Origin: Heterotrichella gracilis | Taxonomy: Eukaryota > Sar > Xanthophyceae > Tribonematales > Xanthonemataceae | Length of the DNA: 64,000 nt | Reading direction: 5' to 3' | Assembly: GCA_032358255.1 (NCBI GenBank) | Contig: JAULBX010019079.1 | Location: 19,068-83,067, forward strand | Shown here: positions 1-61,200 of the stretch, one piece after another | Numbering within the stretch: position 1 is the stretch's first letter | Layout: each line of letters begins with the position of its first letter | Notes under the pieces: model-generated | Databases searched by the model: none | The model's input: the letters and a program-made list of their open reading frames with translations, nothing else | Told to the model about the DNA's origin: nothing | Program-made: the position numbers and the translations under genes

Positions 1-1632
1 AGCTACCCCTTCCCGGGCTGCATCCAAAAACTCCACCAGCACAGCCTTGAACACCCCGCTGCATGTGGGCACCATGTGGGCCCCTGGGTGCTCAAAAGCC
101 TGTGCTAAATGCGCGTCAAATGTGGCCATGAGGTCCCTGCTGCGCTCATTAGGCACCAGCTTGTCAGCCAGGCCGTACACATGCAGCGAGCGCGTGGGGG
201 TGCAAGCAGATTGCAGCGCCTGGGAGTAGCTGGCGTCCCGGGGGAGGAAACCTCCAACCTGCAGGGATCGCAAAAAGCCGTCATATCAGTGCACATTTAG
301 GAGCCTTGGAGCAGGATGTTGCATGCCATGCAGCAGTGCAGCCTCAGAGCACATGCTGGCGTTTGTTAGGCACCGATGACATGGCGCTTCTTTTGCATTG
401 GGCGCCAATGCCATCCCGACAAATCTCGGGACGCAAATGCAGCAATGTTGACCAACAATCACAAATGAACAGCCTGGCATTGACTGCTTTCATGGGGATT
501 AATAGCTTGTGCGACAGATAACGACCCTCATTACTATCATGCATGTGTGGCTGTCTGCAAATATTACCAGGATGGCAAATTGTGGTTGCGCTCCATGCGC
601 CTTGAGCATACTAGCATCCATGGTGGCCAACAGCAGTGCAGCAGCTGTGGCGCCCTGCGAAAACCCTAGGATGCCGTGCACAGGCGCGTGCACCCTAAGG
701 GCTTCCTGCAGCACGTCCAGTGAGGTCTGCCAGCCTGTGTAGTGTGCGGCGCCGGAGGGTCGGGTACCCTGCTCCAAGTCCTGTGGGAAGGGATTTATAA
801 TTAGGGTCAGGAATAGGCTTAGGGTTGATGGTGTGTACCCTACTACATGCGTCCTCGCGTAGGGGCTTGTGGAAGTGCATGCCGCGCAGGCAGTATTGTG
901 TGCTAGTGTCGGCACCATCAGACCAGTAATAATTCTCAGTACCTAGAGTCTTGCAACAAGTATGAAAATTTCATTTAATGCAGATTCATCAGTTTTAACA
1001 CATCGATGGCACATGACCTCAACCCTCTCTATCACCCAGGTGCAAAAGGTTCAGGTTTATGAGTTTATCAACTCCCATCAGAAAGGTTCAGGACCCTGCA
1101 CCACTCACCTCCCAGTTCCACCACGACCTCTGCCCCTCACCCCCACCCCCCGCCTCCCTGACCTCCTCCTCCCCCGCCGCCTCAACCACAAAGGGTGCAT
1201 CCACAAACAGGAACTCCACTCGGGACTTGAGCGCCTTGCGCATGGAGCCGATGCGAGACCGGAAGACCTGCGTTTGGGGTGTTTTACAGTGGTGTTTCGC
1301 GATGTGGAACCCATGCAGGGACGGAAGAGCTGCAACCCTGAAGGTTGCCCAGGGATGGTTCTTGTGGGGGTGTCTGTTACAATGCAAGGCTGCAGCCCAC
1401 TATGGGCATTGATACCTGTGGTACCCGAGGCTCAGTGCATAGTGGTTAGCTACCTTGCCTTCCCCATTTTGCCATTCAGGCACAGGGGGTTATTAGTGCG
1501 TCTGGGCAGTGGTAGTGGTAGCACAGGCTAAGTACAGTCAGCTACCCATCTACCTTACCTCCCCATTTTGCAGGTAGCCGTGGAGGCACAGCACCCGCAG
1601 CTTGGTGCCTGCAGGGGCGCTGCCTACACAAA
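1..1632 (-). CDS. FSH1/OVCA2-family serine hydrolase, partial
   Basis: Alpha/beta-hydrolase of the FSH1 (OVCA2) family, predicted to cleave esters of unknown substrate. Exons, in coding order: about 1632-1559, 1267-1109, 780-568, 258-beyond position 1. The first recognisable exon carries KLRVLCLHGYLQNGE, followed by VFRSRIGSMRKALK and FLFVDAPF, all typical of the family. The nucleophile elbow is GFSQGA (about position 625). The acid loop YGLADKLVP and the histidine in HPGAHMVPT lie in the last visible exon, so Ser, Asp and His are all present. No ATG is found in frame before KLRV: a stop lies upstream at about 1666, so a further 5' exon is missing from this model. The C-terminus runs off the left edge. 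Family assignment is strong; the 5' end is unresolved. Confidence 0.88.
1449..1475 (-). repeat. decayed copy of the FSH1-like exon 1 donor edge
   Basis: Short degenerate copy of the exon 1/donor junction at 1551-1590 (shared core ccccattttgc and aggcacag). It lies inside intron 1, downstream of the true donor in gene order. Confidence 0.45.
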
Positions 1633-2332
1633 GCACAGGTTCTTCAGATGCACTGTTGCGGGATTTTGGCTACCAACTTTGGGCACATAGAAGTCATGTA
1701 CAGCACAACATGCACCAAAAGTTCCAGGTATCCTACCCGTCATGGTGCAGACCCTTCTGCTGTGGCGTGCTTGTGCAGCAAAGGAGTGGTGTGTCCTCAC
1801 GCCAACCCCTTGACACCCCTGCTGGTGCGTGCAGATGCGAGGCAAAACCGCACGCACCAGCATCCACTCACGATGAGAGCCTACAAAAATGCTGTTGTAC
1901 TTCTCTAGTGTGGGATATGCCCTTGCTATGCCCTTGTATATGCTGAAGGGTTGGCCGGCAGCTAAGCACTGCCAGGGCTATACAGACACTCTATTGCGAT
2001 CTCAGAGTGGGCAAGAGGGATATGCATGCCTTTAACGGTGTACAAGGCATATTGTGATCCTCTCTTGCTTCCACTGTGTCAATAAAACGAACGAGCCTTT
2101 GTGCAGCAAAGGTGAACATAGCTTGCAAAGCAGGCAGTGTGGGATGTGCAACTCTTCTGCCCACTTGTTTTTTGCCGAATGCACAAGAGCCCCTAACAAA
2201 GGCCAAGTCGCGAGATAAGTGCAGGGTTAAAACACTCTCGCTGCCGGTTATTTGCAAGGCATAGGAGGTAGGGTGCCTACATGAGTTGATACGGCATGCC
2301 TGGAGCCAATTCCAGGCCACCCATCCAATAAG
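1633..2332. other. intergenic region, head-to-head FSH1-like / TAF10
   Basis: About 700 bases between two divergent genes. The missing 5' exon of the FSH1-like gene is probably here. I see no TATA box or RNA gene I could defend. Confidence 0.5.
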
Positions 2333-4162: not shown

Positions 4163-7100
4163 TCACAGTATCATGGTGAGTGGGTTCTCCACATAGCCCT
4201 TGAAGGCTTGCAGCCACACAGCGCCCATGGCACCATCCACCTGCAGGGAGGGAAGGGGCCAATGAGAGGGGGTGTAATCATGACGTGCAGCAATGATGAC
4301 TTGCAGGAACCACCGCGCTCCTTTGCGGCGCCACTGCCAATGAAAGAGGGCACATGTGGATGCCCACCGCCATAGACGATGCGTACCAATACCTAAACCC
4401 TGTGATAAATGTTGTGTTACTGCACCTCGCTGGGGCTGCCGGCACACCACCGCCTGCGGGCCACACCCATTCAGCATCACCCTGCCCCACCCATGCACAG
4501 GAAGGCCCCCACCCATTGCCAACTCTCCACATGGTGGTCACATGGCAGCGTAGCAGTGATCATGCTGCCTTCAGGAAAGATACCCTAGTGGGCTGTGCCC
4601 TAACCCTAGCTGTGTCATGGCACCCCCGTGGCGCCACTACCACACAACCCACCAACCGAAACACCTGTTTCCCATCATCTCCACCCACCCCGCCCTCAGA
4701 ACCCATGGAACATCCACGAGACCCCATTCCCCCGACCCCCCACCCACTCACCACACGGTGGTCGCACGACAGCGTAGCAGTGATGACGCTGCTCTCGCTG
4801 ATGGTGCCATCCTTGGACATGACCAGCTGCTTGTCAGCGCCACCCACCGCCAGTATGCATGCCTGTGGCGGGTTGATGATTGCCGAGAATGCGTTGATCC
4901 CGTACATGCCCAGGTTGCTGATGGTGAAGGTGCCGCCGGTGAACTCGTCGGGCTTCAGCTTGCCCTCCTTGGCCTGCAGGAGGAAATAGGGATTGCTATT
5001 TACATAAAATTGCTCTGGTTTCGCCGCATAGTCTATTTGCTTTATGAAATGGGTTCTTTAGGGTTTAGGTGCCAGCGGTGACCTCATCGGGCTTGCTTTC
5101 CTTGGCCTGTAGGGGGAAGAGGATTTAAATTAAAATCCCAAAGATAACATTGTAGAATATTTTGTTTTCTAATGGTCTAAATAAAATCAGGGAATAGGGC
5201 GTTGCCAACAGCTGCGCAGCCTCACTGTTGCGCTGCAGCCCGCCCCTTGCCCAGCAGATGCATGCGGATACGGCAGCTGCACTTCCCCCACGCATTGTCC
5301 TACCCCTCCTGACGCAATGCAACCCACCAACAACCCTCTAAAGCAGCACAGCCACGCCACCCACCTTTGCCGCCAGCGCCTTGACCTCTGCACTGATTGC
5401 AGACAGGCCCAGGTGGTCCGCGCCGCGCACGATGGGCACCATGAGCCCCACACAGTTTCCTACCACCGTCTGACGCTTGGAACCCAACCCACCACCCAAC
5501 CAACCAACCCAATAGCAGGACAGCCGCATTGGCTTCAGGTTGATGCGCTTTTTATTCCAAGGCACTAACACACACCTTTGCCGCCAGCGCCTTGACCTCT
5601 GCGCTGATTGCCGACAGGCCCAGGTGGTCCGCGCCCCGCACGATGGGCACCATGAGGCCAACCGGCGTCTGCACCGCCACGCTGATGTCGATGTTGCTGT
5701 ACTGGCGCACAAAGTCCGGGTGCCAGCTGGCGTTCACCTCGGGCACCTTGCGCAGGGCGAGGGCTGCCGCCTGCAGGGGGTGGGGGAGAGAGGGGGGAGG
5801 GCTCAGCGGTTCAGCCGTAGTGGTGGTGGTGGGTGGAGGGTGTGTGGTCAGAAATGTGCGTTTGCCGTGTACTGTGGATTTGGGTGGTGGTAGTGGTGAT
5901 GGGCTGAGGGAGTGTGGTCAGTAGCGTGTGGCCCGCGTGCCAAAATCTTGCTGCTCGCCCACACGCCCCTCACCTTGAAGACAGGTGGGCTTTACATACG
6001 ACGGTGAAGTCATTCACTGACAGTTTGCCCCGTCCTGCCCCCAGCTGTGCATTGTGCATCCTCCATGCACCCTAGATCTCAACCCTAGCCCCAAACCCTA
6101 CACCCCTCACCTTAACAATGAAGTCGTTCACCGACAGCTTGCCCCCGTCCTGCGCCGCCAGCTGGGTGTTCAGCTCCGCACGCAGCTTGGCCAGCTTGTC
6201 GATGCTGCAGTTGACAGCCAGGTAGTAGTGCGGGATGGTTTGCTTGGACTCCAGCAGGCGCGCGGCAGTCACCCGCTTAATTTGAGTGTGGGGTACATCG
6301 AAGAAATCGGTGTAGGCTTGGGATGGGGTGGAGGGTGCTGGGGCGGTGGTGGTGGTGGAGGTGTCGGCGGCAGGAGCGGTGCCTCCTGTTGTGGGGGGAG
6401 AGTGGCGGGGTGAGTGGGGGGTGCTGGGGTGGGTGGCATCGGTTTTGCTGCTAGGATGGGTAGTAGTGTGGATTGCGGGGCGAGTGGGCCGTGCAGATGC
6501 TGCATGTGTAGATCGCAGTGCGGTAACACCATTTCTCATTAGAATAATCAAGTTGAATGTGCATGTGGCACAATGGCGCAGCGAGGGTGCACGCACCGCT
6601 GGCAATCGCCTGCTGTACATCCGCGGCCACGATGCGCCCGCCTGGGCCTGTGCCCCCTACTGCATTGAGGCTGATGCCGGCCTCGGCAGCCAGCTTCCTG
6701 GCAAAGGGGCTTGCAACCACGCGGGAACCTGCAGCAGCATGGCGCGCCGGTTAAAATACAATATAAGGAAGCAATCCACTTACGAGGGCGATACAAGCTT
6801 CCAAGCAGCAGAGATGTCATGCCAATAATTTACATGAGAAGGAATATGGAAAATATTACTTAAAAGTTATAACAGTCTAATGAGCCTGGGTTGGCTCCCT
6901 CATGACTGTTTCAAAATTCCTGTAAAATAACATAGGATTATAACTAATAATCTATAAGGGTTTCATAGCAGCACATCATGCAATGGTGCAGGCATCCTAG
7001 CTGTGGCACTTATCTACTGCCAGTATGCTACAGGCTGTAATGGAAACAGTGTCATGGCAGCACCCACACATGCCCTGGAGATTCAGTGGTCATGCACACT

Positions 7101-8967
7101 CACAGATCATTCATGCCATTGATCATGATGCTGACCTTTGTCGGCCTTGAGCGAGCCAGGAATTGCCCTGGTGGTACAGATGCATGGATGAACCACCACC
7201 TGCTAGCGTGCCAGGACCAGTATGCGCATGCCCTGCCAAGGACGTTCATGCATGTGGCACCCCCCCCCCCCCCGTGCACGCACACCCCCTCCGCCCAACG
7301 AGGGCTCTGAAACAGGTGGACAATAGCAGTTACCCACCTGCAGCAGCTGGCGCCGCGGCCTTGCGCGCCGCCGGCGCCTGCGCCGGTGTGGCCGCTGGGG
7401 CAGCAGACTTGGCAGGCGCAGCAGCCTCGGTTGCCGCAGGATTTGCCGCCTTGCCCTTGGCATCATCAGAGGTGAAGCTGGCAAAGGCGCCCACGCTGTC
7501 CTTGTCCTCCACAACCACAAGCACCGGATCCCCAACCGCCACGTTTTGGGCCCCAGCGGGGACCAGGAACTGCGCGATGAAGCCGTCGTCCTGGGACTCC
7601 CATTCGATGGACGCCTTGTCGGTTTCCACCTCCGCGATGATGTCGCCGGCGGCGATGGCATCCCCGATGTTTTTCTTCCAGGCGGTGATGTTGCCCGCCG
7701 CCATGGTGGGCGACAGGGCGGGCATGTCCATCAGTATGTGTGGCGGGAAGCTGGTGCCTGAAACACCAAGTGAGCAAGTAGGTCATTAGGTGCACTGGAT
7801 TCAGGGTGTAGGGTTTAGTGTGCCACACCACCCGCCCTGCACAGTGCTGCATGCATGTATACACCATGTAATAGCGCCCCACGCTACTGCAGGCGGGCAA
7901 AGGGAAAGCGGAGAAGACACACAGGCGCAAGGAAAGACTGGCTGTCCATGGGCAATGGGGGCAGTGAGGCAGCGCTCAGCCACGCTGGAGCGCGCTCTCT
8001 TGTGAGCGAAATGCAATTGACATGGACAGTGTGCTCACCTGACGAGGCCGCGGGTGCAGCTGGCGCAGCTTCTGCTGGCGCAGGTTCAGCTGCTGCCGGG
8101 GCTGGCGCAGCGGCCCCTGGGGAGTAGTCCGCGAAGGCAGCCACGTCGCCCTCCTCCTCCACCAGAATGGCCACAGCGGTGCCCACTGGGATGTCCTACA
8201 GCAAGAACACAGGTCACGAGCCAGCATGGGACAGATCCCAGCGCAACCTACAGCTGGTACCTCTGTGTTGGCAGCACAACAGTGTTGCCAGCAAGTGGCG
8301 ATGGTGAGTGGGGCCCTGCTGACCCCTGCTGATCGTGTCACAGTGGCATGCTGGCAGCAGACCCAGTAACCTCAAAGGATGGCTGCAGTGCATGCGTATG
8401 CTGGCGCGGATACCAACACACGGTATGGAATAATGAACAGGCTCGAACTGCGCGGCGCTGCATGCGCAAAACTGACTGCTACCTTGGGGTGGGTTGTCCG
8501 AAAGCAGGTACTATTCGCTGGCTACTGACCTTGCTGCCTTCGCCATACAGGATCTTTGCAATGAAGCCCTCCTCTTGGGCCTCCCACTCCATGGTGGCCT
8601 TGTCTGTCTCCACCTCACACAGAACGTCCCCGGGCTGCACGCTGTCCCCCACCTTCTTTTTCCACACAGCAATGTTGCCCTGGTTCATGGTTGGGGACAG
8701 CGAGGGCATGGCCATCTCTGTGTGGGGCGGCAGCGCTGCTGCAGCTGCCATCCCTCGGTAGGGCAACCGGGTGCTGGGGTGGGAGGAGAGTTTGGGGAAG
8801 AAGGAAGCCACCTGGCCATGGGATGGGCTCTGATGCTTGCACACATCAATAGCTGCACATAGGGTTGCCCTGCCACTGTATGCTGCACCGTTTGACAGGT
8901 TTCTCTGGCCCAGGTTGCGGCCAGTGGCGACCAACCCCCGGCCCAGTTTTGACCACGCCCTCCGCAT
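4163..8967 (-). CDS. Dihydrolipoamide acetyltransferase, E2 of the mitochondrial pyruvate dehydrogenase complex
   Basis: E2 core of pyruvate dehydrogenase: transfers acetyl groups from lipoate to CoA. Eight exons in coding order: 8967-8530, 8195-8039, 7757-7338, 6728-6597, 6385-6111, 5770-5576, 4973-4752, 4240-4163; every junction keeps frame, giving 638 residues. Order: Arg-rich transit peptide ([12 protein letters not shown]), lipoyl domain 1 (MPSLSPTM, lipoylated Lys in ETDKAT), Ala/Pro linker, lipoyl domain 2 ([14 protein letters not shown]), linker, E1/E3-binding domain ([13 protein letters not shown]), catalytic domain ending in the HxxxDG motif [14 protein letters not shown] and stop. 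Two lipoyl domains and the [15 protein letters not shown] start match plant mitochondrial rather than plastid E2. An ATG 58 codons upstream in the same frame looks like 5' UTR. Introns 5, 6 and 7 hold copies of exon edges, listed separately. Confidence 0.94.
4519..4580 (-). repeat. decayed copy of E2 exon 7 donor edge
   Basis: About 60 bases matching 4752-4806 (shared gcgtagcagtgat and the ccaca-ggtggtc donor context). In gene order it follows the real donor, inside intron 7. Confidence 0.6.
5074..5115 (-). repeat. decayed copy of E2 exon 7 acceptor edge
   Basis: Matches 4935-4980 (shared tcgggctt, ccttggcctg) with indels that break the frame. It is preceded by ctttagggtttagg, a telomere-like run. 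Confidence 0.65.
5362..5460 (-). repeat. near-intact copy of the 3' half of E2 exon 6 inside intron 6
   Basis: About 90 bases repeat 5572-5665 with few changes, including the donor site. The frame is still open and encodes [20 protein letters not shown], the same residues as the true exon. No acceptor fits at its 5' side, so it is probably a pseudo-exon, though its donor could compete. Confidence 0.85.
6008..6060 (-). repeat. decayed copy of E2 exon 5 donor edge
   Basis: Matches 6115-6165 (ttcac-gacag-ttgcccc-gtcctgc). The spacer between copy and exon, 6061-6105, is rich in CCCTA units (caaccctag, ccaaaccctac). Confidence 0.75.
7259..7273. repeat. poly-C run
   Basis: About 13 consecutive C in intron 3 of the E2 gene. 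A likely place for sequencing or assembly length error; it lies outside coding sequence. Confidence 0.8.
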
Positions 8968-10304: not shown

Positions 10305-12415
10305 CTATAGGCTGCCCAACCCAGACATCGCACGCAGCTTCTCCACCACAACGAAAATGATGGTGGTCTGGGGCCCCAGCCGCACGTAGGTTGCTCCCCA
10401 GCCCTTGAACAGCCCCCGGGAGCCGTGCTGGGCTATGATGTCCCGCACACACGACGAGACGCTGCACCTGGCACCCCCTGCAGACAAGCCAGTGGTGCGT
10501 GTGAGTGTGGGTCAGGGCTGGCACCCGCCAGGGTGGTTTGCTTGGACAGGAATATACTTTTTGGAAAATATGGCATGTTTATTGCTGACCATGAGCTGCT
10601 GTAGATACAACCGCACCCGCTCAACGACAAAAAAATCCGCCATCGCTTCATGCTTTCATCTTGTGCCTCGTACACCAGTGACTAAAGCATGGAGCATGCA
10701 CGTCTTCTTCCCAAGCAACCCTGCCCAGCAACCCATCCCAACCTGTCACGCACCCCATGCAAAATGCAACAACACCCCCCTTCCCAACCCGCCCTGCACC
10801 AGCACCCACCCACAAACATGTGCCTAAGCAACAACAAAACCCCTTGCACGCACCCACAAACATGTGCGTCTTGACCACATCCACCGGCGCCGTCACTGTG
10901 GTGGTCACCACCCCAGTCACCATGCTGGCCGCCAGGTGCGTTGTGAAGCTGTCCTGGGCCCCCGTGCGCCGCATGATGGCCTGCTTCACCTCGTCGTAGG
11001 TGGCGCACTGGGAGGCGGTCAGCAGGGCGGCGCGCAGCTGCACACACGGGTTCAGGGTTACGGTTTTGAGGTGCAGGGGTGGGGTGCAGGGTTAGGGTTT
11101 TGAGATGTAGGGTTCAGGTGGCCCACTGGGAGGCGGTCAGCAGGGCGGCGCGCATCTGCACAGGGTTGAGGGTGTAGGGCTTCAGGGTGTAGGTGTGTCT
11201 GTGGCTGGGGTGGTGGAATGCATGATATGGCGCACGGGGGTATCGAGCATTTGGAAAGCAAGCACGCATTGGGATGAAAAGGGTGGATCGCCTGCCATCA
11301 CTCAAGGCGGTTGCAGGTGGTAGCCTTAGTGCACTGCCATGCAATGCAAAATGCATGCCATCCCCGCTTGCAAGGTACTGCACATGCAGCCACAGCCTGA
11401 TGGATGTGCATGACCCATGATGATGTGCAACCGCCAAGCCTCCCCGAGCGTACCGATCCAGGCACCGTGCCCCTCCACATTGCCAGCACGCCCTCCTCCT
11501 GCAGGATTTTGCGGGTCACCGCCATGGGCCCCAGGTGCCGATTCTCCTTGGCCTGACACCGGGTCTTGACCAGGTCAGTGGGATTGGTGAGCGCTGCCGC
11601 AATGGCGCCGCTGGCCGACCCCGCCAGTAGCTTGAGGCCGATGGAGGAGCCCTGCTGGTCCGCGCCTAGCCACCGCTTGACTGGGCTGTACAGGCCGAGG
11701 CGAAACCCTGGGGCACGGTTTAGGGCTTAGAGACAAGGCGGCATGGCGTGGGCAATCAGCTGGCTGCCGTAGGGTACATGGGTTCCAGACTGTGGCATGT
11801 GAGGGTGCCTAGGTTGATGCCCAGACCCTTGTCAGGCAGTGCATGGGTGTTGGCGGCAGTATGCATGACCATTCATACCTCCGTAGATGAGACCTCTGGC
11901 TATCGCAGGGGTGGTCCCCTTCAAAAAAGCACCCACGCCCTCGTTCCGCAGGATCCCCGAGGTGGTTGCCAGCTGCAGGGCACACATTGAGCTCGTGAGG
12001 TGCAGCCACATACCCACACACACACACAATGGGCAGCAATGGTCAATCTTGCAGCGCAAGAGATGCATATTTGGAGACAAGGTTGTCAGGGGCTGCGTAC
12101 CATCCCGCTGGGCGCCCCAGACGCAGAGGCGCCTTGAAGCTGCATCCGCACCTTCAACACATCTGCAAGCCACCAGCCCACCTGTCAGCTTAGTGGCTGT
12201 TAAACTGTGAACCAGATGCCAGGGTTGAACAGGCTCTAATAGCAAGCGTGCCAAGGAGGGGTTGTGTGCATTTCTTGGTGAGTGCATATCAGCTTTTGCT
12301 GAGCTGTACAGGGGATGTGCCACCTACCAACTGGGTTTGTGCACGTGTTGGCAACTCCCACGCTCAGGCCGCTTGTGACAAACTCTGCCACAAACGGGTG
12401 CCTCGATAGGGGCAT
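10305..12415 (-). CDS. Mitochondrial carrier (SLC25), dicarboxylate/UCP-like
   Basis: Inner-membrane solute carrier of the SLC25 family. Six exons in coding order: 12415-12328, 12162-12101, 11972-11879, 11707-11454, 11037-10854, 10477-10305; all junctions keep frame and give 284 residues, the normal size. The three tandem repeats each carry the PxDxxK signature: PVDVLKVRMQLQG, PTDLVKTRCQ and PVDVVKTHMF. After the second comes GVLAMWRGTVPGSLRAALLT, after the third GLFKGWGATYVRLGPQT, which resemble dicarboxylate carriers and uncoupling-protein relatives. The substrate cannot be fixed from this. The third repeat has His where Arg is usual. The start ATG (MPLSRHPFVAEFVTSG) was chosen because it sits just before helix 1. 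Spliced length and three-fold repeat make the family call firm. Confidence 0.92.
10806..10824 (-). repeat. copy of carrier exon 5 donor edge
   Basis: Repeats cacccacaaacatgtgc of 10852-10868, which spans the exon 5 donor, about 45 bases farther into the intron. It would offer a second identical donor. Confidence 0.7.
11119..11163 (-). repeat. near-perfect copy of carrier exon 5 acceptor edge
   Basis: About 43 bases, nearly identical to 10999-11042 (ggaggcggtcagcagggcgg core), placed upstream of the exon in gene order. The spacer 11045-11118 is made of agggtt/ttaggg-like words, and more follow at 11163-11200. Confidence 0.85.
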
Positions 12416-19856: not shown

Positions 19857-21539
19857 GATTCCTGTGGAAGACCAACGCTGCCTCTAAGCCAAGAACAAGC
19901 CTCCTCTATGGCGGAGTAGGAGAGAGGATGCCTCCAGGAAACTGTGTTGTCGACGACTGACTTTCACCATGCCTAGATAGGCGGCAACTGGAACAGTTGT
20001 GGGCCGCTGGGGGCCAAGGCCTCCACTGCACCAGGCTGTATCGTGATTTCCATCCTCGCGTGGACTGGGGGTGGGAAGCAATAGGAGTGGGCAGAGCTGG
20101 GTTGTACAAGCAGAAACGCTCTGGCCACTCCTACTACTACCACTCCCAGTCCTGGCTGGGATCAAGCCAGATATAGCCTAGTTCAGTGAAGGCGTTGGCC
20201 TCGAACGGCCTCCAACGGCACAGAACGGGTCTTAGCCGTGGGAACCTACCTGTTGAAGACCTTTGTAGACCGCACCGCCTCTCTCGCACTGAAGGCCACT
20301 CGTGCCAATTTTGTGCTGACCTGCATGACTGGCCTGATTCAGCACAGCAGCATTCAGCCAGATCCCACTCCATAAACCCATTGCGAGGGAGGACCCAAAA
20401 AGTGGCGACCACTGCTTCAACTGTTCCACCAGCATGGCATTTGCTGTACTTTCTGAGCATGCAGGGTGAGGAGCAGCTGCCACAGCAGGGGGGCGCGGGG
20501 GGTATGCAGCAAGCAGCTGCAGGGGTGCTGACAGGAGCTACCTGAATGTGGACGAGGAGGAGGGGGGTGGGTGAAGGCACGGAGGTTGAGGGCATGGGGC
20601 CTGAGGAGGTGGATGGAGGAGGGCGGTGGGAAGGGGGTACAACAGCCCCCACTGGCAACACTGTTGGCAACAGCTTCAGCGTCGTCAGGACGAAGTGACT
20701 TTTTTTATGGCTGAGCATATAGTGACGTGCGAGGACATTCAGAATCAGACAGGGGCAGGGTTTTTAGCCGTGATTTAGGCATCACTGGTGGCCATGTGAA
20801 TGGGTTATGCCATACAGACCAAGGCTCGTTGAGAACAATTTTCATACCGTAGCCACTTTACCAGTGGCGGTGGCTGCATTTAATCAGACGTGTTAGTTTG
20901 CAGTTGTCAAGCTTGAAGTATAGCACCTGGTTTCCGTGATATTACATCAACAGAGATTTGCAAAGCACAGCACCTTGTGGGTATTTTCCTGAGACCACAT
21001 TCTTCTCCTGCTGCAAAGCGTTGCAAAGCACACCAGCAGGACATTTTGTGCCAGATTGTTCGCCACTGTCCCAGAATTATTAGGAATAGTACTAGCTACT
21101 GGATAGTAGCCATGCCTAGCGGAATACAAGTAAACATAACCAACCAGTCTGAGAAAGCCATTCCCATCCGTCATCGGCTTATTGCACGGTGCCGCAAAGT
21201 TTGAGATAGCCATGCCTAGCGCAGTACTATACGCTTCTAACCAGCAGATTGCAGCAGAATCCCTGCCAGGACAGTGTTCATGACAAGAATGGCCGCCCTT
21301 GAAGGAATTTCTTGCTTGTAAACTTGTTCACCATATGATACATGCGTAGCCTAAAGCCAAGCCAGATGGCTGCCGTGTGACGAATCATGCCCCACGCGTC
21401 CAAACCACCCACAAAAACACCCAAGCCCAGCCTGCATCCTCCCACCCCTATGCCTACTAATAGTCCCGCCCCCGGCCATGCACAGCCACCAAACCCCACC
21501 CAAAACCCTAATGCCCAGCTCACTGCCGCCTTGGCCCTA
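19857..21539. other. mostly non-coding region with one possible exon
   Basis: About 1.7 kb. One frame at 20214-20375 reads like protein (see next entry). The rest holds G-rich low-complexity sequence at 20480-20650 and an A/T-rich region from 20700. A diverged direct repeat around gatagccatgcctagcg occurs near 21105-21120 and 21203-21220. Confidence 0.4.
20214..20375 (+). CDS. possible terminal exon of an unknown gene
   Basis: A 53-codon open stretch ending in TAA reads NGTERVLAVGTYLLKTFVDR, then TASLALKATRANFVLTCMTG. Its composition is more protein-like than the other frames. An in-frame stop lies just upstream, so it would have to be an internal or terminal exon with an acceptor near 20190. 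No upstream exon was found. Weak. Confidence 0.2.
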   Translation, partial: NGTERVLAVGTYLLKTFVDRTASLALKATRANFVLTCMTGLIQHSSIQPDPTP

Positions 21540-21665
21540 AGCTGCCAGAGATGACACCACGGATGACTACAGTCATGAGGACCACATACATCAGACCCTG
21601 AAGACCTCCTGCAGCCTCTTCCCACGCTGCATCGCCCTCGCCCTGCACCTGCTGGCCAGACAGCC
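21540..21665 (-). repeat. decayed copy of the last coding exon end of the FAM114-like gene
   Basis: About 110 bases resembling 21718-21835 (agctgccag-gatgaca, ccacatacatcagacc, ctcctgcagcc), roughly 80 percent alike by eye. It lies past the stop codon, in the expected 3' UTR. The upstream flank has caaaaccctaatg. Confidence 0.8.
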
Positions 21666-21719
21666 CTCAGGCGGCAGCCACACCCAACCCACCACCCTCG
21701 CACCCATCTCCCTCCACCC

Positions 21720-38091: not shown

Positions 38092-40245
38092 TCATGCTGT
38101 TTCTCCATCCGACCAGTAGGCGGTTGCGCTGATGTCGTGGCCGCGCCACTCAGCCTTCTCCTGATCACTCAAACGCCTGACGCCGCCCACAAACCTGCAC
38201 CCAGGCAGAGCAAACCCTTGTTAGGGTATAATACAACAAAAAGCTAACCTGGCTTCAAAGCTGGAAAGCAGATACTTACTTACTTACAACAAAAAAGCGC
38301 ACAATCTTCCAATGCTTCTGGGATCACCGTACCACATACTCTCTCAATTCCTGGGTGGAGGTATGCAATAGTAGAGGTGTCGTGCATTTAATGCTCTTTA
38401 GGACCCACACCCACAGTGCCTTGCAGACTAATCTCACGATGAACCATGCAGCACTTCTTGAAGACAGGACTGCATGGCATAACCATCGGCGCATGCATGG
38501 CATGATGTGGCATAACCATCGGCGCGTGCATGCCACTTTGGGCACCCATGATGACCCCGCCCTTTGCCCTCACCCAAAAGAGAAATCCCCGTTGACCACC
38601 GCCTCCTTCCCCGGGTGCAGCGGGGCGCGCACAGTTCGCCACGCCGAGGCGGGTGGGTACTGCTTGAAGGCCAGGGTTATTGAGTCCTGGGTGATTGCCT
38701 GCACGCAGCCAAACCACCAGCCAAACGGGTGGCTCTTCCTCCCCTTCCACTGCACCTCCACCTCCTCCCCTACCTCCAGCCCATCCAGGTTGCCGCTGCA
38801 GGGAAGGGGCCGGTCAGAAAGTGGGTGGTGCAGCGGACAGTGTTTCACAAAGGAAGAGCCATTCTAGGAGCCTGAGTATGTGTAGCGCTTCGTGGCAAGC
38901 GTGTGCATGTAGGGTTTAGGGTACAGGACCTCAGCCCTAGCCTCGATACATCAAGGTCAACCTTTGGAATGGTGAAACCCCACTTTTTACATGTCCAGTA
39001 GAGATTTCATTGTGTAGCTACAAATTAGGGTTCAGGACCTAAACCCTAACCTTGATACATCAAGGTCAACCGTTGGCATGGTGAAACGCTGGATTTTATA
39101 CGTTCAAGTGTAAAGCATGCCTGCAGCAGGTGCCTTCAACCCTACCTACCCACCTGTACACGCTGTTGTATTGGCTGCCTGGTGGGGGCAGGCGGATCCG
39201 TTCCACAGTCAAACCACGCTCGATGACAGCTGCCATACGACCCATGGGCAGGTACCTGCAGAACACCCCTGGCTTTCAGTCGAGCACAGGTGATGCAGCT
39301 TTGCGCTTGGGAGTAGTGCGGCAGTAGGCAACCAATATGTGTGGAACACCTACCTCGCCGTGAACGTTGGGCTGGCATCCGGTGAAGCACCAATTTCCAG
39401 GCTGACCATTGAGTCATATGCAGACAGGACGAAATCTGCAGACAAGCAGCCCCTTGTCAGCAATTGTCATCAACTCTGAAAAGGTGGGTGAGTATATAAT
39501 TCAGGTGTTTTAAACAAGCAGGGCTGGGCATTTTCCCTGACCTTCTGCATCGTTGTCTAGCTCCCTATTGTAGATTTGGGTGCTGAACTCCTTTCCCGAC
39601 ACCAGGGAGGCATAGCGTTGCTTCCAAGAGTGCTTGGCCCACCACTCGGGGTTGGCGTGCTCAAGGATGCTGAGCAGGCGTGCCCCAAACCGGTTGGTGA
39701 ACTTGTCCTCCCATAGCCAGTCAGAGGAAGCCAACTGGTTGAGCGACCTCGAGCAACACGCAACTGCGCGCCATTCGCACCAGGTTACACCTTGCATAAT
39801 AACTACAATAATAGCAGGGCGTGTGCTGATATCCTACCTTCCAGCTGGTGTATCGTAAGCAACAATTTATGGAAGTCAAGATATCTCATGCCCTCGAGGA
39901 ATGCATTTGGGCATGCAAACGAACCGACAGGAGAAAAGCAAGGCACGCGCAGAGGTCGATACTCTGAAAAACACGGTGCAGAAGGTCAACGCTTCCAGAT
40001 TGCAACCTGACAGACAACCGTAGCCTTTTGTGTTGTACTGGGCAGTTACCTAGGGCCAGCTCCGGGGCGGAAAGCTGTCGTAGTATGTCTTCGAGCAGGC
40101 AGTCGGGCAACGTCTCCAGCTTCAATCTGCACTGTTCTTTCGAGCTGACTGTCGCAGCTGTGCGGGGACCATGGCTACGTCTCGACAGAACGCTTCGGTG
40201 GAAACATGCCACGCTCACGCCCATGATACCCCATACAAACAACAT
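38092..40245 (-). CDS. F-box protein
   Basis: Predicted SCF ubiquitin-ligase substrate adaptor. Six exons in coding order: 40245-40050, 39763-39542, 39435-39354, 39255-39154, 38795-38574, 38194-38092; frame is kept throughout, 308 residues. The F-box is KLETLPDCLLEDILRQLSAP, continuing after intron 1 as ELALVACCSRSLNQLASSDW and LWEDKFTNRFG. The C-terminal half holds VGEEVEVQWKGRKSHPFGWW, a pattern seen in one group of plant F-box proteins whose substrates are not known to me. Another possible start is the Met at 40224. The N-terminus is basic and mildly hydrophobic. Confidence 0.82.
38927..39112. repeat. tandem repeat, about 90-100 bp x 2, in an F-box gene intron
   Basis: Two diverged copies, about 38927-39010 and 39031-39112, share ttagggt-caggacct, gatacatcaaggtcaacc and catggtgaaac. 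Each begins with a telomere-like word. No exon sequence is included. Confidence 0.85.
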
Positions 40246-40754: not shown

Positions 40755-42260
<1,506 letters not shown>

Positions 42261-45196: not shown

Positions 45197-46966
45197 ATGA
45201 AGGCCTATCCCATTCTCCTCAACTATGATAGTGACGCATCTTACAACAGCGACGCCGAGGAGACGGTTTATGTCCCTGCCAAAAGAACAAGAATGGCTGC
45301 TGTTTTTGAGTCGTCAGAGTCAGATGAGGAGGAAGGCTCGTTGATCGTTCACAGTCCTGAATCCACCAGAACAACACCCAAGAGCGAGATTACTCCTAGT
45401 GCGCTTGAAGGACGTGGGCTGCCTCTGGTAAGTTGCTGGGTACCAACCTATTGGGCCTAAGGGTTCAGTGCTCTGCAAGTGCTATTATCATACAGTCCAT
45501 AGCCTCCCTGCAGGTGGTAGAAGCCAGTGGGGAAAGGTCTCCGCACCTTGTATCACCCACAACTGCTGTCGTGGACTCGCTTATCTGCGGCACAGTCAGT
45601 CTCTTCCCACCAGGCAGTTCTGAAGGCTCAATGGGCAACAACTTCCCTTCAGCAGGCGACTCAACCTCTCCAGTGGTCACACTTCAATACCCACCTGCCA
45701 AAGTTGAGAGGGATGTTGCTAGTGACGAAGAAGCACTTGACCCACAAGAAGAAACGCTTGACCCACAAGGTACAGCCCTTTTCAAGTAGTACCTCACCTC
45801 TCAATGCAGTTCTGCCTGACGCCAATACCAGCCATCTAGTTCTATAATATGATCACCGTTGCTCTCAACTCCTATCATGTGCTGTTTATCTTCATATCTT
45901 TACATCTGTGATTCTGCTCGTCAAAGTATGAAGCTGCACTGGGGCTGACAACCAAGTGTGTGCAGTGGCAGGTGGCGAGCTGGTGGAGGAACAAGTTGAA
46001 GTCAACGGCGCAGACTCTGAGCAGAGCTTTGATGGAGTGCTCCCTGTCCCTTGTACCCAAGCAAGTGAGGAGTCCATCACTTCCAGCTTTCGACCTGGTC
46101 CACTGGCTTTCTCACAATCTGAAAGCAGCCTCGCAGCAGTACCAGCTGAGCCACCAAACCACACCACTCCTGCAGCGCAACACGAGAACACCTACACGCC
46201 AGTGGGTCGCCTGCCAGTGAATGACCCACCAGCGGACTCCGTTGAAGCTCAAGAAAGTCATGCAAATCCACCACCAGCCGACGAGCTGAGCCTGTGCAGT
46301 GGAACCGCCAGTGCAGCATCAGGGGGACTCAACGAGCCTACCATGCCAAGGTTTCCACTGTCCACACCCCTCACAGCGCTATATGACAGTGAGCCAGTGG
46401 CCACCATCGAAAGCTTTGCGGTGGAAACTCAATCAAGTGCAGCGCTACCCGCGCTAGGTCTGACAGGCCACCCACTTGGTCAGCTGTACTCTCCAAATGA
46501 CAGCCCTCCATGGTTGAGCCCAGGACCTGGTGGACCCAGGGCCACCCAGGTTGACAGCTCAGAATCTCAAGGAGTGGCAGTGGCAGCTACAGAGCTCCAA
46601 ATCCCTGACAACGCAAGTTCAGTGGCCGACAATGGCGATAGCAATGCACCTGACAATGCAAGTTCTGTGGCTGACAATGGGGATAGCAATGCACACGCCT
46701 TCAGCAGCTCCCTGGCTTCCAACAACCCAGCTGAAGACAGCGGACCGCAACCAACCCCAGTGACGGCAGGCATTGAACCAGACAGCAGCCCCCCGCCTGC
46801 TGCCCTACAGCCAATTCCACTTGCAAATGGTCCACCCGCAGTGGCTGACGTTAACAGCACTGCGGTTGCGGAGTCTGGCGAAGACAACATCAGCTGCTTG
46901 TCCTGGATATGGCACAAGCTGTTTTGCAGCCACCCACGCATCAGTGGCCACGTCAAAGCCAACTAG
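45197..46966 (+). CDS. Acidic low-complexity protein, unknown
   Basis: Three exons, 45197-45427, 45514-45769 and 45966-46966, keep frame and give 495 residues. It starts MKAYPILLNYDSDASYNSDA with an Asp/Ser/Glu-rich patch (SSESDEEEGS), a short basic AKRTR, then long Ser/Pro/Ala/Glu-rich sequence without a predicted fold. Residues 219-248 of the last exon hold a perfect 15-residue tandem repeat, PDNASSVADNGDSNA twice (45-bp units at 46609-46698). A shorter DPQEETLDPQ repeat ends exon 2. The only ordered-looking part is the C-terminus, ISCLSWIWHKLFCSHP. I do not recognise a family; the acidic patch and basic motif would suit a nuclear protein but that is a guess. Confidence 0.62.
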
Positions 46967-48320: not shown

Positions 48321-51234
48321 ATGGCCGAGACCGCGACCACTCGTGGCAGGACAACTGTGAACAACGGCAGTGACGCCAACGTACAAGGAACAAATGACGA
48401 CGCGCAGATCAGCAAACTGTAAGTCTGCCTGTACGCTACTACACTGTGAAATATCTGTAGCAGCAAGGCCTAACGACACACTGCTTGGCTGTTCCTTTGT
48501 GCACGCCCGCAGTAAACATGCTCAGTAATTACTGGGCGAAGTAATGGGTGTCAAATTTTGTCAAGCTACGTTGTTGGCAATTGGTGTGGGCTTGGCATGT
48601 CTGCAGATCATGCGTCAGGCTGGGGTACTTCAGGGACAACTACATACAGTACTTTGTGCGGAGGCCTTCCAGGCGCTCGCCGTTGATAAACCGAGGTACG
48701 AAAGCAAAGCACTGGCCACTCCTCCCATGGGTGTGATGATATGCGCATCAATGGCATGTGCATGGCATGCCTGTCGTCTCGGGTCCCTCAATGCGCCATG
48801 CCAGGATGTGCAATGCCATTGCCGCCGCGCCCAAGCTGCACACAGCCAGTGGCTCAGCAAGGTTCCATTAGCCTTGTTTGGTGGTGCAGGATATTACTCC
48901 CGCGCGGCCGCACTGCGGCAACTCCTGCAATCTTTCCTGGCAGCTGGCGGCGGCGCCAAGCAAATACTGTCTCTGGGGGCAGGCTTCGACACAACTTTCT
49001 TCCAGCTAGCGGTACTGAATGCACCGCATTGAATGCGCAAATGCGTTATCGCATGGGGTGTTATCATCACAATACCTTTTGACTTTAACCATGCCATGCA
49101 TGGATTGGTACTGTTGGCCAGTTCTGCCTCAGCCAGTGAACCATGAGGGCAAGGCCTGAGTGCACATTCGATACAGGATGCATGTGCCCATACCATACCA
49201 ATACAATTCAAAAAATTGATACCCTATCTACTCACCTCCCTGCTACCCTGTGCAGGAGGAAGGCCGCAGCGTGCAGCGCTACGTGGAGCTCGATTTCCCC
49301 CAGGTCACCCGCAACAAGGCGCACATCATCGCCGCGACACCCACCCTGCGCGCCCACATACCCGTCTCCCCGCCGCCGCACGTAGACACAGAATCCGGGC
49401 AAATCACCAGCACCAGCTACAGCCTGCTTCCAATTGACCTTCAGGACCTGGCAGGGGTGGAGGCGGCGCTGGCGTCTGCCGGGTTTGACTTTGATGCACC
49501 CACTTTTGTGCTGTCTGAGTGTGTGCTGGTGTACATGGAGCCGGGTGCCAGCCAGGCGGTGGTGCGGTGGCTGGGGGAGCGGCTCACGTGTGCGACGTGC
49601 GTGGTGTATGAACAGGTGGGGCAGGGCGGGGGGCTGGGTAGCGGTCTTTGAATTTATGTTCCTGGTACATGTAATATCAGGACAAAAAGAGAGCTTTCCT
49701 GTTTGATCAGAAGTAAAGTAATTATAGGTTTAATATCCTATATATTGAAAATCATGTTTGTTATAGAATCAATATAGTAACGCTGTGTAGGCTGGGGCCA
49801 TTCTGTCCCTACGTGAACCAATGCCCTGGTACTGGACGTGTGGTGTGTAGCGTTAATCAATTGCATTGTTTGATTGAATTTTCTAATGCAAATGAATGCC
49901 GCGTGATGCAGCTTGCGGATGGCAGGCATGGAAGCGCACCTGCATGCCTGCAGTACCGGCAGACAGCTGAACTGACCATGCAAATCCATGTTCTGCATGC
50001 CTGTCAGCATGTCACGCAGTAGGTTTGGGATTTCCGAGGGGGCCGGTCCGCCGGGATGTCCCCATCTAGAGCTGGTGCGGTCCACGAGCGATGCTCAGTG
50101 CTGACTGACTGTGTATGATGGTGTGTTGCAGATCAAGCCCGATGACGCCTTTGGTCGGCAGATGCTGCTCAACCTAGAGGTGAGGAAGGGCTGGTTGGGC
50201 AGTGGTAACAGCGTGCATATCGCTGTGGAGGGCATATTACCTGCGTGCAGTTGGTTTTATTGGGTAAAAGTACACAGGCGCAGGCGTGTGAAGTGTGCTC
50301 CTCCAATCCCTAAAGTGGGGTGTATTCATCAATTTCAATGACTTTATATTAAATCTAATTACTTTACATTAAATCAATCTCAATTACTGAATCTATCTTT
50401 TCATTTGCCAGGCTGTATTCCAATCAACATGTTTTTATTCTCTAAACAACATCATCCGTCGTCCCTGCGCGCCCTCAACCGTTGTGCTTTGCGTCACATG
50501 AACATTTTCACTGCACTGCCAATGGGCGGCCTCCAGGGTGACACAGCTGCTTCACTGCTTGATCATCCCTCACATGTAACTCAATGTGCGTCCCCCCTGC
50601 AGTGCAGAGGCTGTCCCCTGAAGGGCCTGCACGCCACCCCCTCCCTTGAGGCGCACCAGGCCCGGTTCCTGGACAACGGCTGGCAGCGCGCCCTGGCTGC
50701 TGACATGGACACAATCTATAAGCGCCATCTGGACCCGGTGGATAAGCGGCGGATAGAGCGGCTGGAGATCTTTGACGAGTTTGAGGAGTGGCACATGATC
50801 CAGGTGGGGCTCGTTGGGATATTAGTGACATTAGTGAAATATAGAACGATTTATTGATGTTTGTTCCAAAATATTTGGAAATCTTTGACTAGTTTGAGGG
50901 GTGGCACATGATCCAGGTGCTGGCTTGGGCGGGGTAGGGGGATATCAGTGACATATTAGTGGGACATGAGAAAAATTTGGCTTTCTATGAGTTAGTTAAT
51001 TACAAGCATTCCAGCACTTGCTACGGTAGTATGCAGTACAAAAAAGTCATTAGTAGTAACCTGGTAATACCACACGTCGTCCCAAGAGGATTTCACTGAG
51101 TGCTGTTTGCTGGTGCTGCTGCGCAGGAGCACTACTGCATCGCGATAGGTATCAATGACAGCCAAGGCGTGTTCAGCGATTTCGGGTTCAAGCAGGTCAG
51201 CCAGGCTCCACTCAGGTTCCCCAATGCAGACTGA
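48321..51234 (+). CDS. LCMT1: Leucine carboxyl methyltransferase 1 (PP2A methyltransferase)
   Basis: Methylates the C-terminal leucine of the PP2A catalytic subunit, controlling holoenzyme assembly. Seven exons: 48321-48418, 48607-48695, 48890-49011, 49256-49615, 50132-50179, 50603-50803, 51127-51234; all in phase, 341 residues. Hallmarks: VRLGYFRDNYIQYFVRRPSR, SPLINRGYYSRAAALRQLL, SAM-binding motif ILSLGAGFDTTFFQL, YVELDFPQVTRNKAHII, SYSLLPIDLQDL, FVLSECVLVYMEPGASQ, IKPDDAFGRQML, LDNGWQRALAADMDTIYKR and EIFDEFEEWHMIQEHYCIA. The first exon is a Thr/Asn-rich leader. Intron 6 holds a copy of the exon 6 end. Very confident. Confidence 0.95.
50876..50965 (+). repeat. decayed copy of LCMT1 exon 6 donor edge and intron start
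   Basis: About 85 bases repeating 50764-50850: 44 bases of exon end plus the start of the intron (atatcagtgacatattagtg). The copy carries a stop (gactag for gacgag) but keeps the donor ccaggtg. Confidence 0.88.
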
Positions 51235-57200: not shown

Positions 57201-57328
57201 GATGCAGGTTGATCAAAACTCACCAAGCCAGTCACTCCCGCAACTAGCTGCTCGTAGTTGAGCGCAAAAGCGCCAATAGCTGCCTCAGACAGGCCAGCGG
57301 CCTCCATCTTGCTCCTGAAAGCCTCCAT
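54273..57328 (-). CDS. UTP-glucose-1-phosphate uridylyltransferase (UGPase)
   Basis: Makes UDP-glucose from glucose-1-phosphate and UTP, feeding cell-wall, sucrose and glycolipid synthesis in the cytosol. Eight exons in coding order: 57328-57224, 57098-57021, 56807-56467, 56234-56057, 55879-55749, 55421-55142, 54828-54624, 54367-54273; in phase, 470 residues, the usual eukaryotic length. Nucleotide-binding loop LNGGLGTSMGLEKAKSLLEV, then KFVLMNSFSTSDDTKAYL, CPPGHGDIYCSLLGSGLLD, YLFVSNSDNLGATLDLDLL, FFNTNNLWVNLDSL, RDSSTPPVFQLETAMGSAIE and VVPRDRFAPVKTCNDLFALR with the conserved lysine. The C-terminal beta-helix is present but ends in an unusual tail (GEYTDTSLNVTPAEVPVPAM) rather than the plant ENKDI-type end. 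Very confident. Confidence 0.96.
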
Positions 57329-58295: not shown

Positions 58296-61200
58296 CTACT
58301 TCTTGGACCGCTTGCCACGCGGCAGCTGCACCTTGGTCGCAGCAGACGACCCCTCCTTCTTCTTGCGCGCAGACTCGTTCCATGGCAGCATAGGCTTGGA
58401 GGAGCTGAGGTCGGCCAGGTCCTGCTCAACCATCTGGAGCATCTTGGGGGGGACAACGCCGCCGCTCTTGGCCTGCGCCGCAAATATTAAAAATAAAAAC
58501 ATATAAGAAAACAAATCTGCTCCACCATCTGGAGCATCTTGGGGGGCATCACGCCGCCGCTCTTGGCCTGCGCCGCAATGTGATTTATGGTGGTAAATCT
58601 TGCCCCCAAACCCCCCTCGACGCCAGGATGGTGAAAGATGTCCTCCTCCAACAAACCATAAACTCCAAATCCCAACTCCCAACCCATTAGAATCCAAACC
58701 CTGCACCCTGCCTCGACAGGGCAAATTTATGTCAAAACATAAACCCTGACTTTTGGCCTAAACCCTAGGCCCCCACCTTCACATGGTGGATGATGTTCTC
58801 CTCCTTGTAGCCCAGTACCCTGCCCACAAGCACCTTGTAGTAGGGCGAGTCAGCAACCAGCGCCGCCTGGGCCCCAAATGTGGTCAAATGCTGGGCCCAC
58901 GACCGGAAGGGCTCTTTTTTGGTGCTGATGACGGAGGTGATACCCAGGTTGCCTGTGGGTGCATCAGGGCTATGTTTTAGATGAAAAATTGAAGAGAAAC
59001 TAATGAACATAAATGCCTGCATCGGTGTCCCAGCCTGCGGCGCAGGCCATTAGCTATTGCATCATAAGGTACGTATATCAGGATTATATGAGGACGCAGA
59101 AATTGCAGCAAGCATAGCATTGCATTGTGCAAGGCTGTCTGCTGATTTGCGTGCAGTGCTGTGACGGTTGTAAATGTAAATCACCTGGGGCGGTAGACGT
59201 GAACATGGCAACCTTGGGGTTGTCCACAATCTGCTTCAGCAGCGGGACCACGTAGGGTCTGAACAGGGGCATGAGCTTGGTGCGGTCCACATCCCAGCCG
59301 ATCCACAGCTGCACCATGCACACCGCTTTCCTTCCCTCTAGGAACGCTATTAGCTCCCCTGAGGCAAGCATGATCTGCTGCTCCTCGGTGAAGGGGGGGT
59401 CATTAGGGCCTGCAGGGGGACCCACGGTACATTTTTTAAGGTTCAAATTTCCAACGTTTTGAGGCAAGCATGAACTGCTGCTCCACAATGAAGGGGGGGT
59501 CGTCGGGGCCTGCGGGCCACCATGATTTTTATCACAAATTTCAGGTGTAATTTTTCAGGAATTCCATCACGAGCAAGTGACATGTGGCATGATCTGCTGC
59601 TCCTCTATGAAGGGGGGGTTGTTGGGGCCTGCGGGTCAACCACAGCAAATTTCTTAGGAATGCTGTGAAAATTTTCTGCATTTGGGCGGCGACTTGCTCT
59701 TTGCACGCCTGCTCCTTGGTGAAGGGGGGATCATAGGGACCTGCGAGTACCCCATGGCAAATTTTCTTGGGTTTGTATTTTTCGGCATTTAAAGTGCGAC
59801 TTGCTCTTTGCGCGCCTCGGTGGAGGGGAGGTCGATGGTTTTTATCAGAATTTTCAGGAATCCCATCACAAGCAAGTGCCACGGCATGTGGCCTGCATGT
59901 ATATGCACTCATTGTGAGGAGGCTTTTGAGTAATCCGCAGTGCCCAACGACCCAAGCTACTGCCACTAGTAAGTGACACTTGGCAATAGATTGAATCGCT
60001 GAACACTGTGAATTACTCAAACCTTCCTCAGTACAAGCGCATTCACATGCAGGCCACAGTCGGCAGATTCCTTAGGGTTTGCTATGAAAAATTTACTGCA
60101 TTTGGGGCGTGACTAGCTCTTTGCACGCCTGACCGGGACCGGAAATCGCACCACTTGCCTACGGTCCGCGGACTGCGGCGGGCTTATCATCATTATTCTG
60201 CCATTCTATTTAAATAATTTAGCATTCACCCACGGGTCACGATGAGTGCGTACACATGTGGCAGGAGAGCGCGCTCATGAGCCCGTGAGCGCTGTGTGAG
60301 GCATGCGTGTGCAGCACGGGGTCAACATCAAGTGCATCAGCATTCCTGCCATGTGGTAGAATGCCTCCAGAATGGCATGCGCATGCACATGGGTTGCGGC
60401 ATGCTTCATGGCGGTGTTTAGGGTTTACAGGAGATGAAGCACACAGGGCAACACGTGGATGGAGGGGGCCTTGAGCCCACCATAATGGTATGGGGTGGGT
60501 TGCATGTCATCATCAGAGAAACGCCTCAATAAGCAGCACCAGCAGTGCGCCTTGCTAGCATTGCATGTTTGGTACCACCGGCACACAAGGTGGCGTGAAA
60601 TTGATTTTACCTGTCCCATCCACGATCAGCCCCAGGTTGTCCGCCACCTGGCGGTAGTAGGAGTCGTAGCTGTACATGCGCTGCGCAGACACGATGGTGT
60701 TGTCCTGCAGCACCTCCATGCCGTGCAGCTCCAACTGCCACTTCTGCAGCGCCTCAGCCAGGGAGGGCACCTTCTTGACCCAGGCCTCTGATGGGTCGGG
60801 GTACAGGCCTGCGCACACGCACGCCCAAGGCTTCAGGTTGCGAGCCCGCTCCTAACATGCTTTAAAGAACCTAACCTTTTTGAGCTAGGATTTCCGTTCA
60901 ACCTGAGCTCCCTGCCTGCAGGCGCAGCCGCAGCTCCAGCAGCTTGCCATATGTTGCAAACCCCAACACTCAAAACCCCAAACCTTAAACCCTAGCACAC
61001 ACCTGTGGGCTTCAGGGTTGCAAACCCGTCGTGCACCCGCAGCTCCAGCAGCTTGCCATAGGTGGCCACCTGCAGCTCCCCAGGCGACCTGGCCTGAAGC
61101 ACCTCCAACCAGAAGCGCCTGCCGGTGGTGGTGGTGGCCGCCAGCACATCCCCTGCCTTCACCCCTTGGAGGCTGTCTTGCAGGGTTGCGGTGCCTGCGG

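Follow-up and report, generated by a model that had tools for sequence, protein, structure and literature searches.

Where does the DNA of introns come from? The question is difficult to approach, as the traces of that origin fade. It is raised here by a 64-kb stretch of the genome of the alga Heterotrichella gracilis (hereafter, the window), located in contig C192 of a 68.5-Mb assembly of 903 contigs, which retains 16 events in which two local copies of the same sequence, mostly at an exon edge, flank a spacer. An earlier note on this DNA had counted about 18 such cases, with telomere-like spacers in roughly ten, and had proposed that a single repair process acting on exon edges, followed by decay, lengthens the introns. 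Our analyses confirm the observation of exon-edge copies with telomere-like filler and extend it past the window.

Comparison of the window with itself by blastn yielded 19 direct pairs at offsets below 500 bp (score ≥45) and no inverted pair. A finer scan (score ≥32) detected 24 direct and no inverted pairs at offsets of 20 to 350 bp, followed by 1, 1 and 0 direct pairs and 0, 1 and 1 inverted pairs in the next three distance bins. Low-complexity pairs were removed from these scans and from those of the DNA beyond the window. Both totals agree with the number of cases initially counted, and the distance distribution agrees with the statement that the copies lie within about 300 bases of their source. 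Merging of the pairs at score ≥45 left the 16 non-overlapping events. After removal of one copy, 10–11 of these lie across a predicted splice junction and 3–4 within introns, the remaining 2 being exonic but close to the exon edge. Donor and acceptor sides are both affected, as claimed, but the assertion that the copies always cover a junction or exon end is too strong.

Exons and introns were placed with a codon-and-splice model of our own. Its training set was 14 of the 15 open reading frames (ORFs) picked by hand from the window, and it was then refined on its own output. The ORF left out contains a stop, and the resulting gene models are sequence-based predictions. Beyond the window, we used 20 loci of 8 kb picked for telomere arrays, whereas the window itself and 11 arbitrarily placed 4-kb loci (44 kb, at round coordinates selected by hand) were not picked for arrays. 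In a 222-kb sample that includes the window and was partly chosen for telomere arrays, we identified 86 events, none of them inverted below 1000 bp, with offsets of 59 to 315 bp, repeat lengths of 25 to 262 bp and identities of 73 to 100%. The inserted length represents 9.3% of the predicted intron DNA of this partly array-chosen sample. The 11 arbitrary loci contributed 12 events at score ≥40, one of which has an offset of 385 bp; the same cut also admitted two inverted pairs at less than 600 bp and four distant direct pairs. Two offset classes perceived by eye (~100/105 and ~200 bp) were not supported, with Bayesian information criterion values of 87.0 for one component and 88.2 for two.

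The association with telomere-like sequence was addressed from the opposite direction, starting from 85 internal arrays of three perfect CCCTAAA units in 84 loci away from contig ends. Their source was the initial 100 entries in a list of 834 matches, and they thus come from low-numbered contigs; L006, an overlapping locus, and arrays less than 150 bp from the end of a locus had been dropped. The 150 bp to the left of each array were aligned to the 150 bp to its right, and 7138 mismatched flank pairs of different loci provided the expectation. Direct repeats of 24–139 aligned bases surround 37 of the 85 arrays at score ≥32 (0.68 expected, inverted repeats 0), and 21 of them at score ≥50 (0.01 expected). 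Such flanking repeats are about six times more common at arrays than at random positions.

Lastly, every predicted intron was aligned with its flanking exons, a check proposed in the earlier note. At score ≥36, there are 46 matches in 44 of 278 introns, 20 on the donor and 26 on the acceptor side, 25 of which start exactly at the exon edge. No antisense match was found, and shuffled intron–exon pairs gave 0.0. In the arbitrary loci, a copy of a flanking exon was present in 7 of 46 introns (0.00 after shuffling). Chance and low complexity are ruled out by the distance bins, the inverted strand, the mismatched flanks, and the shuffled and antisense intron–exon pairs. Microsatellite slippage is ruled out as well, since the duplicated unique flanks are at least 25 bp long and low-complexity pairs were excluded, and we think an assembly artefact unlikely given the graded identities of the copies.

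Based on these sequence features, the copies are probably scars of double-strand-break repair that duplicated the broken ends, the intron copy decaying thereafter. A staggered break would leave both ends with the same stretch, X. Both ends would be filled in, and the gap would gain filler before joining, either telomeric repeats (for which telomerase acting on a 3' end is the simplest source), AT-rich DNA or nothing, which would yield X-filler-X. Inside an exon this product would destroy the gene except where the reading frame is preserved. If X covers a splice junction, one copy would keep the junction and the exon, while the filler and the second copy would become intron, in which the latter would be free to decay. 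Repeated rounds at one spot would generate ladders. Local, direct pairs with varied filler are what fill-in and joining of staggered breaks should produce.

Telomeric and other filler between the copies

CCCTAAA is the telomere repeat of this alga. Arrays of eight units are found on 11 contigs, within 200 bases of the first base of the contig in 6 of them and in reverse orientation in the other 5. Contig C626 encodes a telomerase RNA-binding domain, and perfect three-unit arrays number 428 and 406 on the two strands of the genome.

The spacers of the window contain 30 heptamers in 1279 positions (23.5 per kb), compared with 169 in 37053 positions of the other introns (4.6 per kb), 0.8 per kb in exons and 2.5 per kb in intergenic DNA. 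In the arbitrary loci, a heptamer is present in the spacers of 9 of the 12 events, with densities of 77.2 versus 6.5 per kb. A larger set of 58 spacers, from mostly array-chosen loci and with the surroundings of the seed arrays excluded, has 43.5 heptamers per kb versus 5.4 in control intron intervals. The heptamer enrichment of spacers for which the earlier note had proposed a test is thus present in both samples not picked for arrays. Its roughly ten telomere-like spacers compare with 7 of the 16 window events at a telomere-likeness score of at least 8, plus 2 more that score 7.

Telomere-like sequence is nevertheless just one kind of filler. The telomere score is 12 or more in 14 of the 58 spacers (3.0% of controls), and the GC content is below 0.35 in 8 of them (3.4% of controls); in other events the spacer is absent, and plain tandem duplications exist. 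All kinds occur in little-diverged pairs, with telomeric spacers at L022:59, L026:6404 and L010:5115, AT-rich ones at L027:3251 (GC 0.30), L016:90 (GC 0.28) and position 58422 of the window (GC 0.09), and spacers of 0–2 bp at L013:4655 and L023:1476.

Inserted DNA bounded by direct repeats, with 85 of 85 arrays in predicted introns and none in predicted exons, is reminiscent of a mobile element or an introner-like family that generates target-site duplications. However, an all-against-all comparison of 66 fillers (E ≤0.01) revealed no common element sequence, different loci having in common only the telomere repeat and a small number of short, simple stretches. Furthermore, the repeats vary between 25 and 262 bp, and for two AT-rich fillers the genome contains no match other than the fillers themselves. 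Unless the telomere repeat were itself the element, an introner or transposable element is contradicted in this sample, and we regard this explanation as extremely improbable. The genome search with the same two AT-rich fillers identified no organelle source for them, in an assembly that may be devoid of organelle contigs. An AT-rich stretch of the window at 22656–22830, which holds an open frame in a predicted intron, is single-copy in the genome and may be organelle DNA; no Pfam match at 0.01 was found for its 70-residue frame.

Where a copy directly borders an array, one or more nucleotides continue the register of the array at 7 of the 12 left-abutting junctions and at 13 of the 16 right-abutting ones, small numbers that include nested cases. 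A mammalian survey put the chance level at about 25% or less (PMC2246262). The G-rich strand runs away from the nearest exon in 63 versus 22 of the 85 arrays and in 15 versus 4 cases in the window, but this pattern was not repeated in the 11 arbitrary loci (11 versus 10), and we therefore do not claim an orientation rule. Heptamers are also unevenly distributed between the first and second halves of introns, with 420/70 on the G strand and 185/465 on the C strand in the 222-kb sample, and 55/10 and 46/66, respectively, in the window. This pattern was not repeated in eight arbitrary loci either (G 12/19, C 42/38).

Exon edges, decay and probable break repair

For classification, one copy of each event was removed and the collapsed site was placed on the predicted gene models. 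Depending on whether copy 2 or copy 1 was kept, 65 or 68 of the 86 events lie across a predicted junction and 5–6 are internal to exons, while random placement would put 28.4% at junctions and 49% in introns. The 11 arbitrary loci have 9 of 12 events at junctions (22% at random). Collapsing the repeats around the 37 flanked arrays in the same manner gave 23 sites across a junction, 13 in introns and 1 ambiguous.

This enrichment can be accounted for at least in part by selection and visibility. When a junction is duplicated, one of the two copies still works in splicing, and exon-internal events should be purged unless they are in frame. Because the exon copy decays slowly, the pair is visible for longer, which would keep junction pairs detectable up to about twice as long. 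We thus favour selection as the main reason for the exon-edge position. Alternatively, breaks or their repair might be concentrated at exon–intron boundaries by nucleosome edges, transcription or splicing, with survivorship playing a minor role. The events of high identity, in which decay should matter least, leave room for such a preference, since 12 of the 13 at ≥92% identity lie across a junction and 1 in an intron; at 88–92%, 14 of 20 are at junctions, 4 in introns and 2 internal to exons. The proportions relative to random placement, both in the 222-kb sample and in the arbitrary loci, also speak for it. On the other hand, near exons only junction-covering duplications are harmless, the slow decay of exon copies would prolong the visibility of junction pairs, and 13 of the 37 repeats around arrays are inside introns. 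A real preference for boundaries is therefore conceivable, although we doubt it. Slightly less likely still is the stronger proposal that telomerase-assisted repair is directed to exon–intron boundaries; if it were true, telomere addition at breaks would be a main generator of intron DNA in this alga. In its favour are the junction position of the least diverged events and the share of inserted length in the predicted intron DNA of the partly array-chosen sample, whereas the hint from strand orientation was not repeated in the arbitrary loci.

The clearest exon-internal tandem duplications, at L017:6313–6449 (offset 78) and L023:7043–7212 (offset 123), both have offsets that are multiples of three. 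In the window, a tandem repeat at 46603–46690, DNASSVADNGDSNA, is in frame inside the long open frame of a hypothetical protein and appears tolerable for an exon. We also searched the collapsed sites of the 86 events for intron gain; among the six inspected there was no clear case.

The intron copies decay. Among those not predicted as exons, a net frameshift or stop is found in 0 of 11 at ≥90% identity, 4 of 16 at 84–90% and 16 of 26 at 70–84%. This rise in damage with divergence, together with the linkage between copies and telomere-like filler, in both the repeat-flanked arrays and the heptamer-rich spacers, supports the single repair process followed by decay that the earlier note had put forward. 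That this process acts on exon edges is not established, since selection and slow decay of the exon copy favour junctions too.

Several observations weigh against break repair followed by free decay of the intron copy. The comparison is confined to one genome. Random positions in the 8-kb loci carry flanking repeats (≥32) in 7.4% of 1463 cases, and hence duplications that lack telomeric filler are frequent. The identity of the X copies is not tracked by the purity of the array (rho 0.04, p 0.82, n=32), which is unsupported as a clock, although it is tracked by the array score (rho 0.46, p 0.009). The microhomology described above is found at both junctions of the arrays and shows no bias towards the side where priming by telomerase is expected. 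Differences between copies are ~2.5 times more frequent at third than at first and second codon positions. Lastly, at least 3 of the 12 left-abutting cases (L028, L044 and L046) have a telomere-like stretch behind the second copy as well, so that the duplicated unit there already included an array.

Regarding codon positions, one constrained and one free copy should give about a two-fold excess, somewhat more with biased mutation. The observed value is at the upper end for one free copy, and thus constraint may persist on a small number of intron copies. The excess would also fit intron copies retained as alternative or mutually exclusive exons, and the intron copy is itself predicted as an exon in 16 of the 69 scored events. 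Nevertheless, 22 of these 69 intron copies contain a net frameshift or stop, and alternative exons would not predict telomeric or AT-rich filler, which makes this a very unlikely explanation.

The nested arrays raise the possibility that the array came first. Telomere-like intron tracts would then stall replication, and slippage or template switching would duplicate the neighbouring DNA as tandem units. In addition to L028, L044 and L046, this proposal is consistent with a three-step ladder at L096:664–900 (contig C9, near 23864), in which exon end and donor are each time followed by telomere-like filler, with decay growing along the ladder. Rearrangements induced by telomeric tracts in introns are known (PMC6410037). 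However, most of the 12 left-abutting cases have non-telomeric sequence after the second copy, so that the array is only between the copies, and AT-rich spacers and pure duplications occur without any array. We consider an array-first origin unlikely, and yet the nested cases and the L096 ladder indicate that growth from existing arrays contributes.

Break repair with duplication of the broken ends thus remains our preferred explanation. With identities of 73 to 100%, the copies represent many stages of decay, and the system would allow direct measurement of break repair, of telomere addition at breaks and of intron growth, far from mammals.

Events in the genes of the window

The events are described here by gene, with exon edges as predicted by our models and offsets between the copies in brackets. 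In the FSH1-like gene (Pfam FSH1, minus strand), a 23-bp pair of score 32 at 1450–1472 and 1550–1571 (100 bp) has its second member over the donor, low-coordinate edge of predicted exon 1559–1608.

The E2 gene, also on the minus strand, has four events. Its donor exon edge at 4730–4792 recurs in the intron at 4506–4568 (224 bp), and its acceptor edge at 4928–4985 recurs at 5067–5118 (139 bp), with a spacer that ends in TTTAGGGTTT. The donor edge at 5569–5662 and its intron copy at 5358–5451 (211 bp) are 93.6% identical and separated by a non-telomeric spacer of 117 bp. Finally, an exon stretch at 6119–6164, 8–9 bp off the donor edge, is copied at 6005–6047 (114 bp) with a telomere-like spacer. 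The best database match of the E2 protein has 67% identity, and the named matches near the top are from green algae such as Coccomyxa and Monoraphidium. Its lipoyl domains, encoded at 7564–7746 and 8548–8730 (71% alike, 984 bp), are an ordinary domain repeat outside the pattern.

Three further minus-strand events affect two other genes. In the mitochondrial carrier gene (Pfam Mito_carr), the acceptor exon edge at 10998–11081 has an intron copy at 11116–11197 (118 bp) beyond a telomere-like spacer. In the FAM114-like gene (Pfam DUF7798), the donor edges at 21717–21843 and 24114–24199 are copied at 21535–21661 (182 bp) and 24014–24103 (100 bp), respectively, with a telomere-like stretch within both copies of the second pair.

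In the VPS39 gene (Pfam Vps39 domains, plus strand), exon edge and donor are copied into the intron three times, from 30337–30375 to 30427–30464 (90 bp, telomere-like spacer of 51 bp), from 33067–33100 to 33178–33211 (111 bp, telomere-like spacer of 77 bp) and from 33811–33832 to 33878–33899 (67 bp, score 34). Two 16-bp copies at 34913–34928 and 34963–34978, alike at 15 of 16 positions, lie on either side of an almost perfect CCCTAAA array, where predicted exon 34968–35147 has its acceptor; this pair was read by eye and is below the score cut of the scans. A fifth pair, at 35655–35708 and 35837–35891 (182 bp), is of the intronic class. Another pair inside a predicted intron, on the minus strand at 38916–38978 and 39025–39087 (109 bp), has copies that each begin with telomere-like sequence.

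The LCMT1 gene (Pfam LCM, plus strand) harbours an exon edge and donor at 50763–50836 with an intron copy at 50876–50961 (113 bp) and an AT-rich spacer of 39 bp. This event is classified at a junction if copy 1 is kept and in an intron if copy 2 is kept. Lastly, in the minus-strand gene at 58300–61194, the acceptor exon edge at 58422–58483 and its intron copy at 58517–58578 (95 bp, 93.5% identity) are separated by a 33-bp spacer of GC content 0.09. A ladder at 59368–59438, 59587–59656 and 59709–59773 stands beside the acceptor edge of predicted exon 59185–59409, with related copies on to ~60131, and an exon stretch at 61033–61066, about 30 bp off the donor edge, is copied at 60924–60957 (109 bp) with a telomere-like spacer.

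Comparison with known systems

The closest likeness is with the short interstitial telomeric sequences of mammals, which are inserted in the course of double-strand-break repair (PMC2246262, PMC7215372). Those insertions resemble the algal ones in being short internal arrays with none in exons, and in some cases the target is directly duplicated, which was ascribed to staggered breaks. Nucleotides matching the register of the array are a feature of the mammalian loci and possibly of the algal ones. There, target duplication is a minor class, with 6 of 130 rodent, 4 of 25 primate and 3 of 66 horse loci (PMC2246262, PMC7215372). In the alga, by contrast, 37 of 85 arrays have long repeats, often of an exon edge, and all 85 arrays are in predicted introns, compared with 31% of human arrays in introns in the same sources.

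The filler DNA of end joining is frequently bounded by direct repeats and has been proposed as a source of introns in Drosophila (PMC3296678). Direct repeats around filler and foreign DNA as filler are common to both systems. In the gained introns of Drosophila, repeats of at least 5 bp are not in excess (19 of 77 versus 26 of 100; PMC3296678), whereas in the alga long repeats greatly exceed the control level, the introns that grow longer already existed, and telomeric filler is frequent.

In intron gain by tandem duplication, as in the alga, splicing renders a local exon duplication harmless. However, such gain needs an exon-internal event, while most algal events span an existing predicted junction (65–68 of 86). 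Natural tandem duplications in rice, reportedly ascribed to patch-mediated break repair, are similarly short and direct, and differ in that the algal ones have telomeric filler and are found at exon edges. In a limited literature search of titles and abstracts, we found no description of telomere-filled exon-edge copies in an alga. Compared with its known relatives, what appears to be new in this system is the frequency of the events, the length of the duplications and their position at exon edges.

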